64,000 nucleotides of DNA from Chlorobaculum tepidum TLS. Lineage in GTDB: Bacteria; Bacteroidota; Chlorobiia; Chlorobiales; Chlorobiaceae. Made by a program: the position numbers and the translations under genes. The notes under the pieces are model-generated. The model worked only from the letters and a program-made list of their open reading frames with translations. It did no database searches and had not been told where the DNA came from. This document shows positions 3,032 through 55,440 of the stretch, piece after piece. The stretch covers positions 705,501-769,500 of the forward strand of contig NC_002932.3 in assembly GCF_000006985.1 (NCBI RefSeq), given 5' to 3'. Each line of letters begins with the position of its first letter. The first letter of the stretch is position 1.

Positions 3032-4009
3032 TCAGCCCATCCGTATTTCCGAATAGTCGCCGATGTTCAGCTCGTGGCCCATCGCCGAAACGATGGCGTT
3101 GTTGCCGACGATCGACCGGTCCAGCATGATCTCGCTGACCTGCGACTTGCGTCCGATGATGGAGTTCATGATGATGGAGTCCCTGACGACCGCATGTTCG
3201 GCGATGGTGGCGTTCGGGCCGATGATGGAGTTGGTGACGGTGGCGCTGTCGGCAATGAAAACCGGCGGGTTGATGATGCAGCCGGGAAGTGATTTTTGCC
3301 GGGTATCCCTCTGCAAGAGAACTTCGTTCGTTGAGAGAAGCGTTTCAGGTTTGCCGCAATCGTACCATCCCTGCACCGGGAAGGTTGAAAATGGTTCGCC
3401 GAGATCGATCATGTGCTGCAGGGCGTCGGTAAGCTGGAATTCGCCTTTGGTCCGGATGTCGTTGGTGATGATGTAGTCAATGCTGTTGAAAAGCGTGCCT
3501 GCCCTGTGCAGAAAATAGAGTCCGACGATTGCCAGATTGCTCACCGGTTGCTCCGGCTTTTCCACGAGCCGCACGATCCTGTCGCCCTCGGTGACCACCA
3601 CCCCGAAGCGTCTCGGATCATCAACCTCTTTGACCCCGAGCGTCGAAATACTGCTGCCGAGTACCAGCTTCAGGTCGACATCAAAAATGGTGTCTCCGAG
3701 GATGATGAACAGTGGCTCTTCATCGATCACATGCGGTCTGCACATATGGACCGCATGGGCGAGACCGAGCTGGTCGGCCTGGGTGACAAAGGTCAGTTTG
3801 ATAGCATAGTGTGAGGTGAGGTACTCCTCGATTTTGCCTCCGAGATAACCAACGATGATCACGGCCTCATCAATGCCCGATTCGATGAGTTTGTCCATGA
3901 TATGCCCGATGATCGGCTTGCCGGCTACATTGAGCAGTACTTTCGGTTGGGAAAAGGTATGCGGACGAAGACGGCTTCCGACACCGGCAACGGGAATGAT
4001 GGCTTTCAT
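3032..4009 (-). CDS. Sugar-phosphate nucleotidyltransferase (glucose-1-phosphate thymidylyltransferase-like)
   Basis: A 325-residue nucleotidyltransferase that couples a sugar 1-phosphate to an NTP, giving an activated sugar for cell-surface polysaccharide. The N-terminal signature GVGSRLRPHT and the following PKVLL are the NTP-binding loop and substrate motif of the GlmU/RmlA fold. Residues from about 245 on are isoleucine-rich hexapeptide repeats (left-handed beta-helix), as in long-form enzymes such as GlmU-like and archaeal types. The exact sugar and nucleotide cannot be decided. It is convergent with the HNH gene and divergent from the NUDIX gene; no other sugar genes adjoin it. Confidence 0.85.
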   Translation of the reverse strand: MKAIIPVAGVGSRLRPHTFSQPKVLLNVAGKPIIGHIMDKLIESGIDEAVIIVGYLGGKIEEYLTSHYAIKLTFVTQADQLGLAHAVHMCRPHVIDEEPLFIILGDTIFDVDLKLVLGSSISTLGVKEVDDPRRFGVVVTEGDRIVRLVEKPEQPVSNLAIVGLYFLHRAGTLFNSIDYIITNDIRTKGEFQLTDALQHMIDLGEPFSTFPVQGWYDCGKPETLLSTNEVLLQRDTRQKSLPGCIINPPVFIADSATVTNSIIGPNATIAEHAVVRDSIIMNSIIGRKSQVSEIMLDRSIVGNNAIVSAMGHELNIGDYSEIRMG

Positions 4010-51340: not shown

Positions 51341-51600
51341 TGCGGTAAGTTTGAGATTGTTTTTTGTATCGATACAAGAACAATTTTTGAAAAATAGATG
51401 GTTTCCATTAATTTAAATATTGAACCATTATAATTTAAAAAAAATTTCAGTTTGATGTAATTGATCAGTAGTAGATTGCAATCGTTACAGTCTCTTCTTC
51501 CGGTTCTGCATTTTCGGGTTAGTCGCATCAGCGGAGAAGAAGCGTGAGTGCCTTGCGCAAGTCAGTGCTGATTGCACCATCCAACAGGCCCTGTTTGAAC

Positions 51601-52624
51601 ATGAAGTGTTCCGTTCAAAGAAGTGTCCGGCTGATTTCTCTTTTGGCCGTCCTGGGCTTTTTCCATGGCACAGCCGCTGCCACCTTGTGGTCTTCAGGGC
51701 CGCGCCAGACCGGCGAGGTCGTTCTCGACGAGATGGTTGCCGGGGCGGGCGGCTTCGTCGTTCGCGTCGGAAGCAACGGATGCACCAGCAAAAACTCGTT
51801 CGAGGTGCTGGTGAACAAAAAACCGGGTCTTACTGATCTCGCGCCGCACTACGAACTGACGATTGTCCGCAAGGTGCCAGATGAGTGCAAGGCGATTGTC
51901 GAGGATGGCACTGTGATTGCGTATGATCTGAAGCAGGATCTCGGCATCTCTGGTCACTACACCTATACCATTGCCAATCCCGTTTATTCGCCGCGCCCAT
52001 ACGCGGATACGAGTGATTACTATCTGCCTAATGCCTTGAAGGATGCGGCGCCTGATTTTCCCAAGGTTACAGAGGTGCGCCCCGAGCCATTCGAGAAGTA
52101 CACTGCCAGGCCGGACTTTTTTTCCTGCCTTCTACCCGTTGATTGGAAACGGAGTCCCGCCGATCCGGAGGGTGACGCAAAAGCTGGGATTTACGAGGTG
52201 CAGCTCACAAAAGAAGAGCTTGCCAAACCGGAGGATGGCGAGAAATATTACTTCCCGCATCCGCTCATCTACGTTGGCTACTACGCCCCCGGCAACCGTG
52301 AGGGGAAAACGTATGCAAACTATCTGGCCGATTACGACCGGCTGATGCGCAAGAACACGGGCAGCAAACAGTCATCGTACAGCAAACCGGTGAAGACGAC
52401 GGTCGCCGGGCTTGAGGCGACTGTTACCGATTACGAGGTCTGGCAGGAGCTTCCGCGTGGCCCGCTGTTTACCACAAAGTACTGGCTGAAGGCTCGTTTC
52501 GTGTTTGTCAAAGCAAGGCAGGGATTTTATGTGCTGGCATTCAAAAGTCCAAAAGAGTTCTATATATAATCAGGGCTTCCCCACATTCCAGACGGTGCTT
52601 GACTCTTTCGTTCCCAAACGGTAA
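51601..52624 (+). pseudogene. Secreted protein with a C-terminal frameshift at a TA repeat
   Basis: The open frame ends at 52569 and encodes about 322 residues from ATG 51601 (signal peptide MKCSVQRSVRLISLLAVLGF, cleavage after AAA); a GTG at 51544 is an alternative start. Family not recognised; the C-terminal part with TVAGLEATVTDYEV and FVFVKARQGFYVLAFKSP resembles the membrane-lipoprotein/PsbP-like domain. The frame breaks in TTCTATATATAATC. Removing four bases (one TATA) joins EFY to NQGFPTFQTVLDSFVPKR, ending at TAA 52622-52624, a natural-looking C-terminus. So this is a recent frameshift, a phase-variable gene, or a sequencing error. Confidence 0.6.
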
Positions 52625-52636
52625 AACGACTTCGCC

Positions 52637-53014
52637 ATGCCGGATATCAGGATAAAACCGACGCGCTCCACGTTGACTATGATGCGAATTGCGTCGTTTA
52701 TCGTGGCGCTTGTCGGCGCGGGTATGATTGCGGGCGTTGTGAGCAACGGCCTGCTCGAAGAGGGCGGCGTGTTCGTGATGGTCTGGATCGCCGCCTGCGT
52801 CGGGATTGTCGGATTCGCGATTTTCAGCGCCTTCAACCGCAAGGTGATCGAAGACGGAATCGTCAGCATCGAAGATGCGGGGGAGTCGCAATCCGCCTCT
52901 GATGCCCAAAGCGCGGAAGCGCGTCTGAAAACGCTCGACGGCCTCAAGCGCCAGAAGCTTATCAGCGATGATGAGTACCAGAAGCAGCGGGAGAAGATCA
53001 TCCAGAGCGTGTGA
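52637..53014 (+). CDS. SHOCT-domain membrane protein
   Basis: 125 residues. Two membrane helices (about 15-34 and 44-66) followed by a short linker and a C-terminal SHOCT domain (about 95-124: RLKTLDGLKRQKLISDDEY). SHOCT is a short helical oligomerisation or anchoring motif. It lies directly upstream of the candidate peptide gene and may be in the same transcript. Confidence 0.78.
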   Translation: MPDIRIKPTRSTLTMMRIASFIVALVGAGMIAGVVSNGLLEEGGVFVMVWIAACVGIVGFAIFSAFNRKVIEDGIVSIEDAGESQSASDAQSAEARLKTLDGLKRQKLISDDEYQKQREKIIQSV

Positions 53015-53052
53015 AGATGTTGCTATCATCAATCAACAAAAAAGGAGTAAAG

Positions 53053-53448
53053 ATGGACAAACAGGTTGACCATTCCAACGGTAAGCGCCGTTCAGGATCG
53101 GACAAGGGCGAGCGCATGATCGCCATCGGGCAGAAGCTTGGTGTCGCGATTCCGGCGGGGCTGCTGCTTTTCTGCGGTGTGAATGCCTCAGCGATGACTC
53201 GAGATGCCGTAAACATATCCTTCTCGCCGGACGCCGTACGGGAGAACGAAGTCGCCCAGCACCTCACGGCGCTTTCGGCCAATCCGCAGGGTGCGCTTCT
53301 TGCCGACAACGACAATCCGCTGCACGGCAACACGCACGTTAATAAGTTTGACCCCAACATACATAATGATTATTCGGATAGCGGCGTGCACACGGACAGC
53401 CACGGCAACGAGCACTGCAACACGCACGGCGACGCGAACCGTTATTGA
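53053..53448 (+). CDS. Candidate precursor peptide with H-x-(N/D) repeats
   Basis: 131 residues from ATG 53053, which has AGGAG seven bases upstream (the longer frame from 53011 has none). Residues 1-20 are polar and basic; about 24-48 are hydrophobic and end GVNASA, like an export signal. The tail 85-131 is Asn/Asp/His-rich. Every histidine in it (91, 95, 104, 113, 117, 121, 125) has Asn or Asp two residues later, and Y107 has D109. Four of these form H-x3-H-x3-H-x3-H (113-125). A radical SAM/SPASM gene starts 12 bases after its stop. Family not recognised. I infer a RiPP precursor; a metal-binding secreted peptide is the alternative. Confidence 0.7.
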   Translation: MDKQVDHSNGKRRSGSDKGERMIAIGQKLGVAIPAGLLLFCGVNASAMTRDAVNISFSPDAVRENEVAQHLTALSANPQGALLADNDNPLHGNTHVNKFDPNIHNDYSDSGVHTDSHGNEHCNTHGDANRY

Positions 53449-53460
53449 AGGGCGACCGGT

Positions 53461-54645
53461 ATGACGAGCAGAGAGGAGTTTCTCGAAAAACTCGCTCAGG
53501 CAGGCACGCTGAACCTGATTTTTCAACTGACCGATCAGTGTGCGCTTTCGTGCCGGTATTGCTTCGCGAAAGGCTCCCATCCATCCGGAGGCCTTCGCAT
53601 TGCCGATGACCTGCTCGATGCGGCCATCCGTAGCGCGTTCGATACGCGCCACCACCAGGTCTCCTTCGAGTGGACAGGAGGAGAGCCGTTTTTCGCAGGC
53701 ATCGATTTTTATCGCAAGGTCGATCGCCTCCAAAAAAAGTACGCTACCAAGCCCTACGCGAATACCATTCAGACGAGTGGCTACGTGCATGACCGGGAGT
53801 TGATCGCCTGGCTTGCCGGGCACGGTTTTCGCATCTCCTCTACCATTGACGGCCCGCCGGAACTGCATGATTTCCAGCGCCCTGTGAATGGCGGCGGCCC
53901 GTCGCTCGGCGCGGTGCTCGCAACGCGCGAAACGATCATCGAGCATCAGGGGCACTGTGGCTGCATTTGCACGGTTACGCGGAACAGCCTCGGCAAGGAG
54001 GGGGCGATTCTTGATTACTACCGTTCGCTCGGCATTGAAGCCTTTCACAGCAATCCGTATTACTATTTTTCCAAAAATCTTGTTGGCGACGAAAGTCTCG
54101 CGCTTGATGCTGACGGCTACGCCGCGTATTTTATCGCCCAGTTCAACGCCTGGTTTGAGGGCGGGCGCAAGCTCCCGATGCCCGGCACGCTCAACTACAT
54201 TCTGCGCTCGCTGACTGCAGGAGCCGGGTTGAAGCAGTCGGTCTGCACCTTCGGCGGGCGCTGCCTGACCAATTTTCTGGCCATCACGCCCGATGGCGAT
54301 GCGTGGCTTTGTCCCAAGTTCGCGGGGTTCGATGAGATGCGCCTCGGCAACGTTGGCAAGATGGCTATCACCGACATCCTTTCTGACGCCAATCCCGCCA
54401 TGGCGCGCCTCATCGACGAGCGCCTGGATGCGATACACACCTGCGAAGCGGATGAGTGCCGCTTTCAGTACCTTTGCAACGCGGGGTGTCCTTACTACTC
54501 TTTCATCGCCAGCGGAGGCCGGAACATCGCCGTGAAGGATTCCCTTTGCACAGGCAAGCAGCTGCTTTTCGAATACCTCGAATCGGTGGTCGAGCTGATC
54601 GATCCCGCTCGACTTCCCGAACCCAGCCCCCTCGAACATGCGTAA
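53461..54645 (+). CDS. Radical SAM/SPASM peptide maturase
   Basis: 394 residues. The [4Fe-4S]-SAM ligands are C27, C31 and C34 (CALSCRYC), with GGEP at 73-76. The C-terminal SPASM domain supplies further cluster cysteines: C262, C268, C284, C328, C333, C339, C343 and C363. The second cluster motif has C-x4-C-x5-C-x3-C rather than the classical C-x2-C-x5-C-x3-C. Such enzymes modify ribosomal peptides or sulfatases; no sulfatase adjoins, whereas a small repeat peptide lies directly upstream. Its start follows AGGGCGACCGGT. Inference: it crosslinks the H-x-(N/D) tail. Confidence 0.88.
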   Translation: MTSREEFLEKLAQAGTLNLIFQLTDQCALSCRYCFAKGSHPSGGLRIADDLLDAAIRSAFDTRHHQVSFEWTGGEPFFAGIDFYRKVDRLQKKYATKPYANTIQTSGYVHDRELIAWLAGHGFRISSTIDGPPELHDFQRPVNGGGPSLGAVLATRETIIEHQGHCGCICTVTRNSLGKEGAILDYYRSLGIEAFHSNPYYYFSKNLVGDESLALDADGYAAYFIAQFNAWFEGGRKLPMPGTLNYILRSLTAGAGLKQSVCTFGGRCLTNFLAITPDGDAWLCPKFAGFDEMRLGNVGKMAITDILSDANPAMARLIDERLDAIHTCEADECRFQYLCNAGCPYYSFIASGGRNIAVKDSLCTGKQLLFEYLESVVELIDPARLPEPSPLEHA

Positions 54646-54724
54646 CATTATCTGTCGCACGGAGGCTGTCCGCCGTCTTTGCATTGTCGCGTTGCTCGCT
54701 CTGCTTCTTTTGCCCGTCGAGTGA
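54638..54724 (+). CDS. 28-codon signal-peptide-like frame, probably a truncated gene
   Basis: ATG 54638 overlaps the maturase stop. It encodes a basic start then a strongly hydrophobic stretch (RRLCIVALLALLLLPVE) and stops at 54722. It looks like a signal peptide with nothing after it, so it may be the remaining start of a third, exported gene of the locus. Expression is uncertain. Confidence 0.35.
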   Translation: MRNIICRTEAVRRLCIVALLALLLLPVE

Positions 54725-54809
54725 TTCCTTTTTTGTGCCGTGAATGCTGAGGGATCTATTTCAATAGAAGTATCACGACTCGCTTCAACGGTGTAAACAG
54801 GGATGCTGG

Positions 54810-55154
54810 ATGAGCGATCAGGTTTCAACTGCGCCGTGCGATCACGAGTGGTTTGACTCTTACCAGCGCTTTAGCTCTTTCTCTCCGGAATCGGTGCGTG
54901 ATGGTTGTCATCCAGGAATCATGGAGCATCTACAATCGTCCCAGAAGGCGATTGTTCTCGTTCATGGTCTTTCCGATTCTCCTTACTTCATGGCGGCGAT
55001 CAATCCAAAAATCCGGGGCACACGCTATCTCTTCTCGGCGGTTTTCGATCATGCGGTCACGACCATGGATGCACACCGGCCGTTTTTCTTGCCCATATTC
55101 CCACCCACAGCCGAGAGCAACAGTTACGCTTCGATCGCCACACCTGCCTCCTGA
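54810..55154 (+). pseudogene. Alpha/beta-hydrolase N-terminal fragment
   Basis: The frame encodes 114 residues. Residues about 40-60 (KAIVLVHGLSDSPYFMAA) are the first strand and oxyanion HG motif of an alpha/beta hydrolase, but the rest of the fold, including the nucleophile elbow, is absent. After about residue 62 the sequence is no longer family-like, and other frames to 55,354 add nothing recognisable. Probably a decayed gene; boundaries uncertain. Confidence 0.5.
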
Positions 55155-55440
55155 TCCAGCACGATTACACGGCGAATATCATCAATTCGCTCGCCACGGC
55201 GGCAACTGTTGTTCGACAACATTCTGAAAACGCCGAGGGGCTGGTGTATCCCTCTGAAAGAGTGGTCACACCGAGAAGTTTCCGGGGGAATCCATTGCGC
55301 AATCCGGTGCTCATTCATCTTCAGATTCACGATTACCAGGTGAAACGGAAATAAACGGTAACGTTGCTTGAGAGGAACTATCTCATTTTTTTTGTTATTG
55401 TTATCATTGTTGGTGAATCAGGGAATCCACTCGTTTCAGA

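Follow-up and report, generated by a model that had tools for sequence, protein, structure and literature searches.

A candidate triceptide-like peptide system with repeated His/Tyr-x-Asn/Asp triplets in the green sulfur bacterium Chlorobaculum tepidum

Introduction

The His-Xaa-Ser systems (HxsA/HxsB-HxsC) combine a precursor peptide bearing repeated His-x-residue triplets with one or more adjacent SPASM maturases. In the triceptides, a SPASM enzyme (XncB, OscB/GrrM, MscB, YxdB, HaaB or YhhB) is accompanied by a short precursor that carries repeated aromatic-x-acceptor triplets. Enzymes of the triceptide group abstract hydrogen from an aliphatic residue and add the resulting radical to an aromatic ring (PMC12257519), and the i,i+2 crosslinks known from SPASM enzymes include Tyr-Cβ(Asp), His-Cβ(Ala), Tyr/His-Cβ(Arg) and Trp-Cβ(Asn/Asp), with YxdB making the Tyr-Asp link, HaaB and ScaB the His-Ala link, and YhhB the Tyr/His-Arg link (PMC11002830). 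ChlB is credited with making several cyclophanes on one peptide by the title of a 2025 paper from Ruel et al., to which PMC12636437 refers.

The single Chlorobi strain covered by a 2014 survey of anaerobes was scored as having no RiPP clusters, and a literature search for a radical SAM RiPP in Chlorobaculum returned no report, the sole paper retrieved on all three subjects being one on a cyanobacterial genome. Here, we describe a pair of adjacent genes in a 64 kb stretch (the window) of the complete 2,154,946-base genome of Chlorobaculum tepidum TLS. The pair is likely to represent an exported, multiply cyclophane-crosslinked, triceptide-like RiPP system, a reading in which the bond chemistry is deduced from the conserved triplets and the enzyme class.

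Gene Organization

The features of the locus are collected in Table 1. A first-pass annotation of the window had proposed a 131-residue peptide followed, 12 bases downstream, by a radical SAM/SPASM gene, and both the coordinates and the gap were confirmed from the open reading frames. The distance between the precursor stop and the maturase start is identical in length in four relatives. The precursor reading frame opens with ATG and is preceded by an AGGAG ribosome-binding site at 53043-53047. No protease or transporter gene linked to the pair was found.

Table 1. Coordinates of the precursor, the maturase and neighboring features in the window
Feature	Coordinates	Strand	Remarks
Upstream co-directional secreted protein, 341 aa	51544..52569	+	Order conserved
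Upstream co-directional gene, 125 aa, membrane segment and SHOCT-like C-terminus	52637..53014	+	Order conserved, not tied to the pair
Precursor peptide gene	53053..53448	+	ORF, 131 aa: signal-peptide-like stretch in the leader, then a spacer and a core rich in His, Asn and Asp
Leader, residues 1-47	53053..53193	+	Basic n-region, hydrophobic 29-43, NASA/MT signal-peptidase-like site
Core, residues 85-131	53305..53445	+	Contains all eight triplets; C-terminal NRY invariant
Triplet 1, H91-G-N93	53323..53331	+	
Triplet 2, H95-V-N97	53335..53343	+	D at 97 in four relatives
Triplet 3, H104-N-D106	53362..53370	+	
Triplet 4, Y107-S-D109	53371..53379	+	
Triplet 5, H113-T-D115	53389..53397	+	N at 115 in four relatives
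Triplet 6, H117-G-N119	53401..53409	+	D at 119 in genome G016
Triplet 7, H121-C-N123	53413..53421	+	x = T in four relatives
Triplet 8, H125-G-D127	53425..53433	+	N at 127 in genome G016
Peptide maturase (394 aa) of the radical SAM/SPASM class, predicted to act as a cyclophane synthase	53461..54645	+	Pfam, AF2 model, fold comparison
Radical SAM motif C27-x3-C31-x2-C34	53539..53562	+	Invariant in 23 aligned sequences
SPASM region, eight auxiliary-cluster Cys: C262, C268, C284, C328, C333, C339, C343, C363	54244..54549	+	
Third-gene remnant, 28 codons then stop	54638..54724	+	Remainder deleted in the window

The Precursor Peptide and Its Triplets

Searches with the precursor against Pfam, NCBIfam and the PDB gave no match, and its orthologues in four genomes are 69-73% identical to it. 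Residues 1-47 are the best conserved block of the leader, within which the stretch QKLG.AIPAGLLLFCGVNASAMT is nearly invariant among the orthologues. The export-signal-like segment proposed earlier is present by hydropathy: the best 15-residue window of the precursor spans residues 29-43 (2.28) and is followed at 44-49 by N-A-S-A/M-T, but the n-region is unusually long. We regard Sec export of the peptide as probable.

The 47-residue core of the precursor reads DNDNPLHGNTHVNKFDPNIHNDYSDSGVHTDSHGNEHCNTHGDANRY. As had been noted from the window alone, all seven tail His residues and Y107 are followed at position +2 by Asn or Asp, and the residue positions given for them are exactly right. When the 47-residue tail was shuffled with its composition preserved, Asn or Asp at +2 of all seven His was reached in 25 of 200,000 trials, a result that overstates the independence of the sites, since a period-4 repeat (H-x-N-x) makes up part of the tail. 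More weight therefore falls on the test of the triplets across species.

In all five genomes that carry the peptide, the Omega residue (His or Tyr) is invariant at each of the eight sites, and the +2 residue is Asn or Asp at every one of them. This holds through Asn/Asp exchanges among the five genomes at 97, 115, 119 and 127 and through synonymous changes of the His codons at 95, 104, 117, 121 and 125; the middle residue of the triplet varies at three of the eight sites. Nine other tail positions have Asn or Asp in at least one genome, and only four of them keep it throughout (one-sided hypergeometric p about 0.02), the five orthologues being closely related and thus of shallow statistical depth for such a comparison. 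Within the tail, conservation is highest at the triplets. The direction of the rule is only favored, since the period-4 repeat also places some Asn/Asp at -2: Asn or Asp stands at -2 of five of the seven His versus +2 of all seven, and over all eight triplets the counts are 5/8 and 8/8, respectively. The tail in genome G016 carries one additional His outside any triplet (H99, in H-S-P). No other copy of the precursor emerged from the genome: the pattern H-x-[ND]-x-H-x-[ND] has 39 matches, and the precursor gene is the only place where overlapping matches cluster.

The only Cys in the core of the window precursor is C122, which is Thr in all four relatives. A sactipeptide or ranthipeptide identity was ruled out on this basis, as the core holds no conserved Cys that could act as thioether donor.

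Co-inheritance of the Peptide and the Enzyme

The peptide and the enzyme occur in exactly the same 5 of 21 genomes of the genus, and sampling 394 genomes from across the phylum turned up no further close enzyme. Joint conservation of peptide and enzyme, with fixed H-x-[N/D] spacing and variable residues elsewhere, had been named in advance as the expected support for a peptide-maturase system, and this is what the five genomes display; conversely, no homologue of the peptide that lacks a neighboring radical SAM gene was found. A PheT tree places all carriers within a single clade of seven genomes (support 100/99). In one noncarrier inside this clade (G015), a deletion has fused the upstream gene to the downstream gene, with loss of the pair, and a second (G009) is also without it. 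In a more distant genome (G006), 283 bp separate the two upstream genes from the third gene, and these same flanking genes enclose no vestige of the pair. Taken together, the deletion, the absence in G009 and the clean absence in G006 indicate that the two genes are gained and lost jointly.

Comparison with the closest relative (G002) reveals an uneven pattern of divergence. Most of the maturase is 95-98% identical at the DNA level, and the upstream gene begins at 97-98%, but the precursor is mostly at 62-83%, rising to 87-92% in the leader block and standing at 92% over the hydrophobic stretch. The precursor allele of the window stands apart from the other four, which are alike. The pattern is suggestive of a replaced allele or of rapid divergence within the precursor only; none of the eight triplets was lost in the process.

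The upstream gene at 51544-52569 displays sharp steps in DNA identity against the relatives, from 98-100% to 78-85% and back. This mosaic suggests that recombination is active at the locus.

These patterns also bear on a rival explanation of the tail, namely that it is an unmodified His/Asn/Asp-rich metal-binding peptide (for Zn, Ni or Cu) and that the radical SAM enzyme acts elsewhere. A His at every fourth residue with Asn/Asp between is indeed reminiscent of metal-binding tails, and the signal-like segment recalls periplasmic metal chaperones. The joint gain and loss of peptide and enzyme is not what this account would predict, however, and while metal binding requires His, it leaves the Asn/Asp at every +2 position, exchanges between the two included, unexplained. 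Tyr107-x-Asp109 obeys the same rule as the His triplets, and equivalent peptides adjoin relatives of the maturase in unrelated phyla. We therefore consider an unmodified metal-binding tail improbable; the crosslinked product of the preferred, triceptide-like reading may itself bind metal.

The Maturase and Alternative Chemistries

The maturase passes the Pfam cut-offs for both Radical_SAM and SPASM. In an alignment of 23 sequences, the three SAM-cluster and eight SPASM cysteines show little or no variation, and all eleven are present in each of the five orthologues. A confident AlphaFold (AF2) model (pLDDT 88, pTM 0.88) is closest in fold to anSMEcpe (4k36; Z 40.4, 21% identity) and next to ChlB (9gm3/9GMC; Z 34.8-34.9 over 354-355 residues, 16-17% identity), likenesses that in themselves do not show function. 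ChlB differs from the maturase in being a SAM domain fused to a HExxH hydroxylase, a domain that is missing here. In the family tree, the maturase forms its own long, isolated branch (3.05 changes per site), and its identity to anything outside the genus is 20-28%, which renders transfer of a reaction type by homology weak. In a plasmid collection, the matches were confined to sulfatase maturases and similar proteins, with identities of 25-28%.

With respect to named families, the 25 best NCBIfam matches of the maturase include none whose specific cut-off is exceeded, and only the generic SPASM domain model is passed. The scores and cut-offs (in bits) are 65/310 for GrrM, 50/445 for YhhB, 75/425 for AmcB, 82.6/370 for HxsB and 78/650 for DarE, and neither XyeB nor FxsB is among these 25 families. 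The enzyme thus lies outside the Xye, Grr and Fxs families that had been cited as precedents.

The best NCBIfam score is that of sulfatase_rSAM (TIGR03942; 156 bits), which, together with the closest solved structure, would fit an anaerobic sulfatase-maturing enzyme that generates formylglycine and has the peptide as an incidental neighbor. The cut-off of this family is 349 bits, far above the score obtained, and the genome gave no match to a sulfatase (PF00884) in a search that was positive in 10 of 14 control genomes. The catalytic Asp of anSMEcpe, Asp277, directly follows the third SPASM Cys. In all five orthologues, the residue after this Cys (C284) is Pro285, whereas the sulfatase-type clade has C-D in each of its 21 members, and the maturase falls outside this clade in the tree. 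These observations leave the sulfatase-maturing assignment with a vanishingly small likelihood.

The second best score belongs to DynA (144 bits, below its cut-off of 450), and it raises the possibility that the same triplets are modified by another chemistry: an imidazole-N-to-Cβ linkage, as for His-Tyr in dynobactin, an ether, or oxidation or epimerization of Asn/Asp with no crosslink. The dynobactin enzyme does form an N(His)-Cβ link (PMC11002830), and darobactin-type enzymes form ethers (PMC9055067). As systems, dynobactin/DynA and darobactin/DarE resemble the present one in having sequence-related SPASM enzymes and, in dynobactin, a His crosslink; their cores, however, are different from that of our precursor, whose tail lacks a dynobactin-like Trp-x-x-Asn. 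The DynA score also lies far under the family cut-off, and Tyr107, which occupies a His place in the pattern, is better accommodated by ring-carbon than by imidazole-nitrogen chemistry. Modification of the triplets by one of these other chemistries is accordingly judged unlikely, if less so than an unmodified tail.

Proposed Mechanism and Comparison with Known Systems

Returning to cyclophane formation, the two genes probably form a minimal RiPP cassette. The precursor would be made in the cytoplasm and recognized through its leader by the SPASM maturase, which would abstract a β-hydrogen from the third-position Asn/Asp of each Omega-x-[N/D] triplet. The resulting Asn/Asp radical would then attack the ring two residues earlier, either the imidazole of one of the seven His or the phenol ring of Tyr107. 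Up to eight three-residue cyclophanes would close in this manner, with an expected mass change of -2.016 Da each and -16.13 Da in total. The modified peptide would be exported by the Sec route and cut near NASA/MT, to give a product of 84 residues whose His-rich end is rigid.

The steps of this scheme differ in strength. That the precursor is the substrate of the adjacent maturase is very probable, and crosslinking of Omega to Asn/Asp by this enzyme is a likely, if less secure, reading of the triplets; the number of rings, up to eight, is a prediction from the triplet count. As to function, our guess is a peptide that acts at the surface or in the periplasm, through interference or through metal binding by the arrayed imidazoles.

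The locus has the sequence features expected of a triceptide (3-CyFE) system: a CxxxCxxC motif, two auxiliary clusters, and an adjacent precursor with conserved aromatic-x-acceptor triplets. As in triceptides, the predicted acceptor is Asn/Asp at i+2 and no Cys is needed, and Tyr-x-Asp is the substrate type of YxdB (PMC11002830). Departing from them, His is the Omega residue in seven of the eight triplets with Asn/Asp as acceptor, the triplets number eight, the precursor is unmatched and the maturase scores under all family cut-offs. The system is also unlike HxsA/HxsB-HxsC in that the +2 residue is Asn/Asp at all sites and not Ser, and in its single maturase. A His-Asn/Asp pairing is absent from the crosslinks in one triceptide review (PMC11002830), and our claim of novelty is limited to that source. 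The first-pass annotation had termed the locus a candidate new RiPP system. Its reading as a RiPP pair is borne out by the co-conservation and the triplets; a wholly new kind of system is not, as the nearest chemistry makes it a triceptide-like variant (PMC11002830). The His-Asn/Asp pairing, the eight triplets and the isolated enzyme branch argue for a new lineage within triceptide-like systems.

If this reading is correct, a ribosomal peptide for which eight rings are predicted on each chain has been overlooked in a green sulfur bacterium that is a cultured model organism. The pair would then offer a compact two-gene system in which to study one SPASM enzyme iterating along eight sites, as well as a new scaffold of arrayed, locked imidazoles, and it would point to relatives in CPR bacteria and archaea.

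Related Loci in Other Phyla

By one uniform criterion, a peptide with Omega-x-[D/N] repeats neighbors the enzyme at 5 of the 19 loci that lie outside the sulfatase-type clade and at none of the 21 within it (Fisher p 0.018), a contrast that is supportive only, because the criterion was set after examples had been seen. At a Woesearchaeota locus (L051:5170-5529), a 119-residue peptide rich in H-x-D/Y-x-D and containing ...HHDHSDNHRDQHTDEGG...HTDKHTDRGHSES lies beside a SPASM enzyme and is a possible archaeal (DPANN) triceptide-like RiPP. Distant relatives of the maturase are adjoined by the peptides GDHSDHVDVNFPYGDYADRWSD and GDHSDHIDHNMPYGDYIDSHRD in a Daviesbacteria and another CPR genome and by GDWDDWDNGHSD in Nomurabacteria. 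The loci of these ultra-small bacteria (CPR/Patescibacteria) at which short peptides with His/Tyr/Trp-x-[D/N] repeats adjoin SPASM maturases include L054:5106-5339, L063:5143-5391 and L070:5103-5252, to which L143, L144 and L145 add three more, the wider genome search for loci of this type having covered the CPR phylum. In a Bacteroidales genome, a 148-residue precursor with a signal-like segment (L076:2948-3394) adjoins a highly divergent SPASM enzyme and holds about fifteen Omega-x-[N/D] triplets, mostly Y-x-N, within its last 60 residues. The neighboring peptide in an Ignavibacteriales genome contains NEYSDYGN.

We lean, by a modest margin of belief, toward a wider picture in which the maturase represents a new lineage that repeatedly joins His rings to the β-carbon of Asn/Asp. 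The secreted peptide would then bear up to eight strained rings, seven of them containing imidazole, in a ladder-like His array with a role of its own in green sulfur bacteria, and the His/Tyr-x-Asp/Asn logic would be common to independent CPR and Woesearchaeote systems.

Peptides of other composition were also encountered beside SPASM enzymes. At L044, L047 (Larkinella) and L049 (Rhodobacteraceae), a 140-residue upstream ORF (3473-3901 / 3525-3947) with a LRIWFRIWVRFWFRI-like W/F-x-R run precedes a DarW-like SPASM enzyme that scores about 297 bits against a cut-off of 650. Downstream peptides at L045, L053 and L062, in a Thorarchaeote, an alphaproteobacterium and a Chitinophagaceae genome, hold or end in N-[VI]-Y-R-Y-[AS]-F. 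Two contigs of IMG/VR binned as viral carry Tyr-rich (YPEYGEYSEYLDYHDYSD) or Trp/Tyr-rich peptides that adjoin SPASM maturases (L081:3844-3981 and L079:1291-1557). At L038:320-2616 (genome G206, same family), two tandem SPASM enzymes are followed by an ORF resembling a nucleosidase-aminotransferase fusion, and no small precursor was recognized at this locus.

The Third Gene and the Downstream Region

In four relatives, the maturase is followed by a third gene, which starts inside the maturase stop and encodes a secreted all-β, propeller-like protein of 267-271 residues with weak PQQ/BamB-like repeats; its structural model is poor (pLDDT 62). This gene was ruled out as an obligate partner, since G006 has the gene but lacks the pair, and the window has the pair but only a remnant of the gene. 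The window is decayed at 54638-55400, where remnants of the third operon gene, an alpha/beta hydrolase and a 237-residue protein are joined across several internal deletions; all three genes are intact in the relatives L083/L084.
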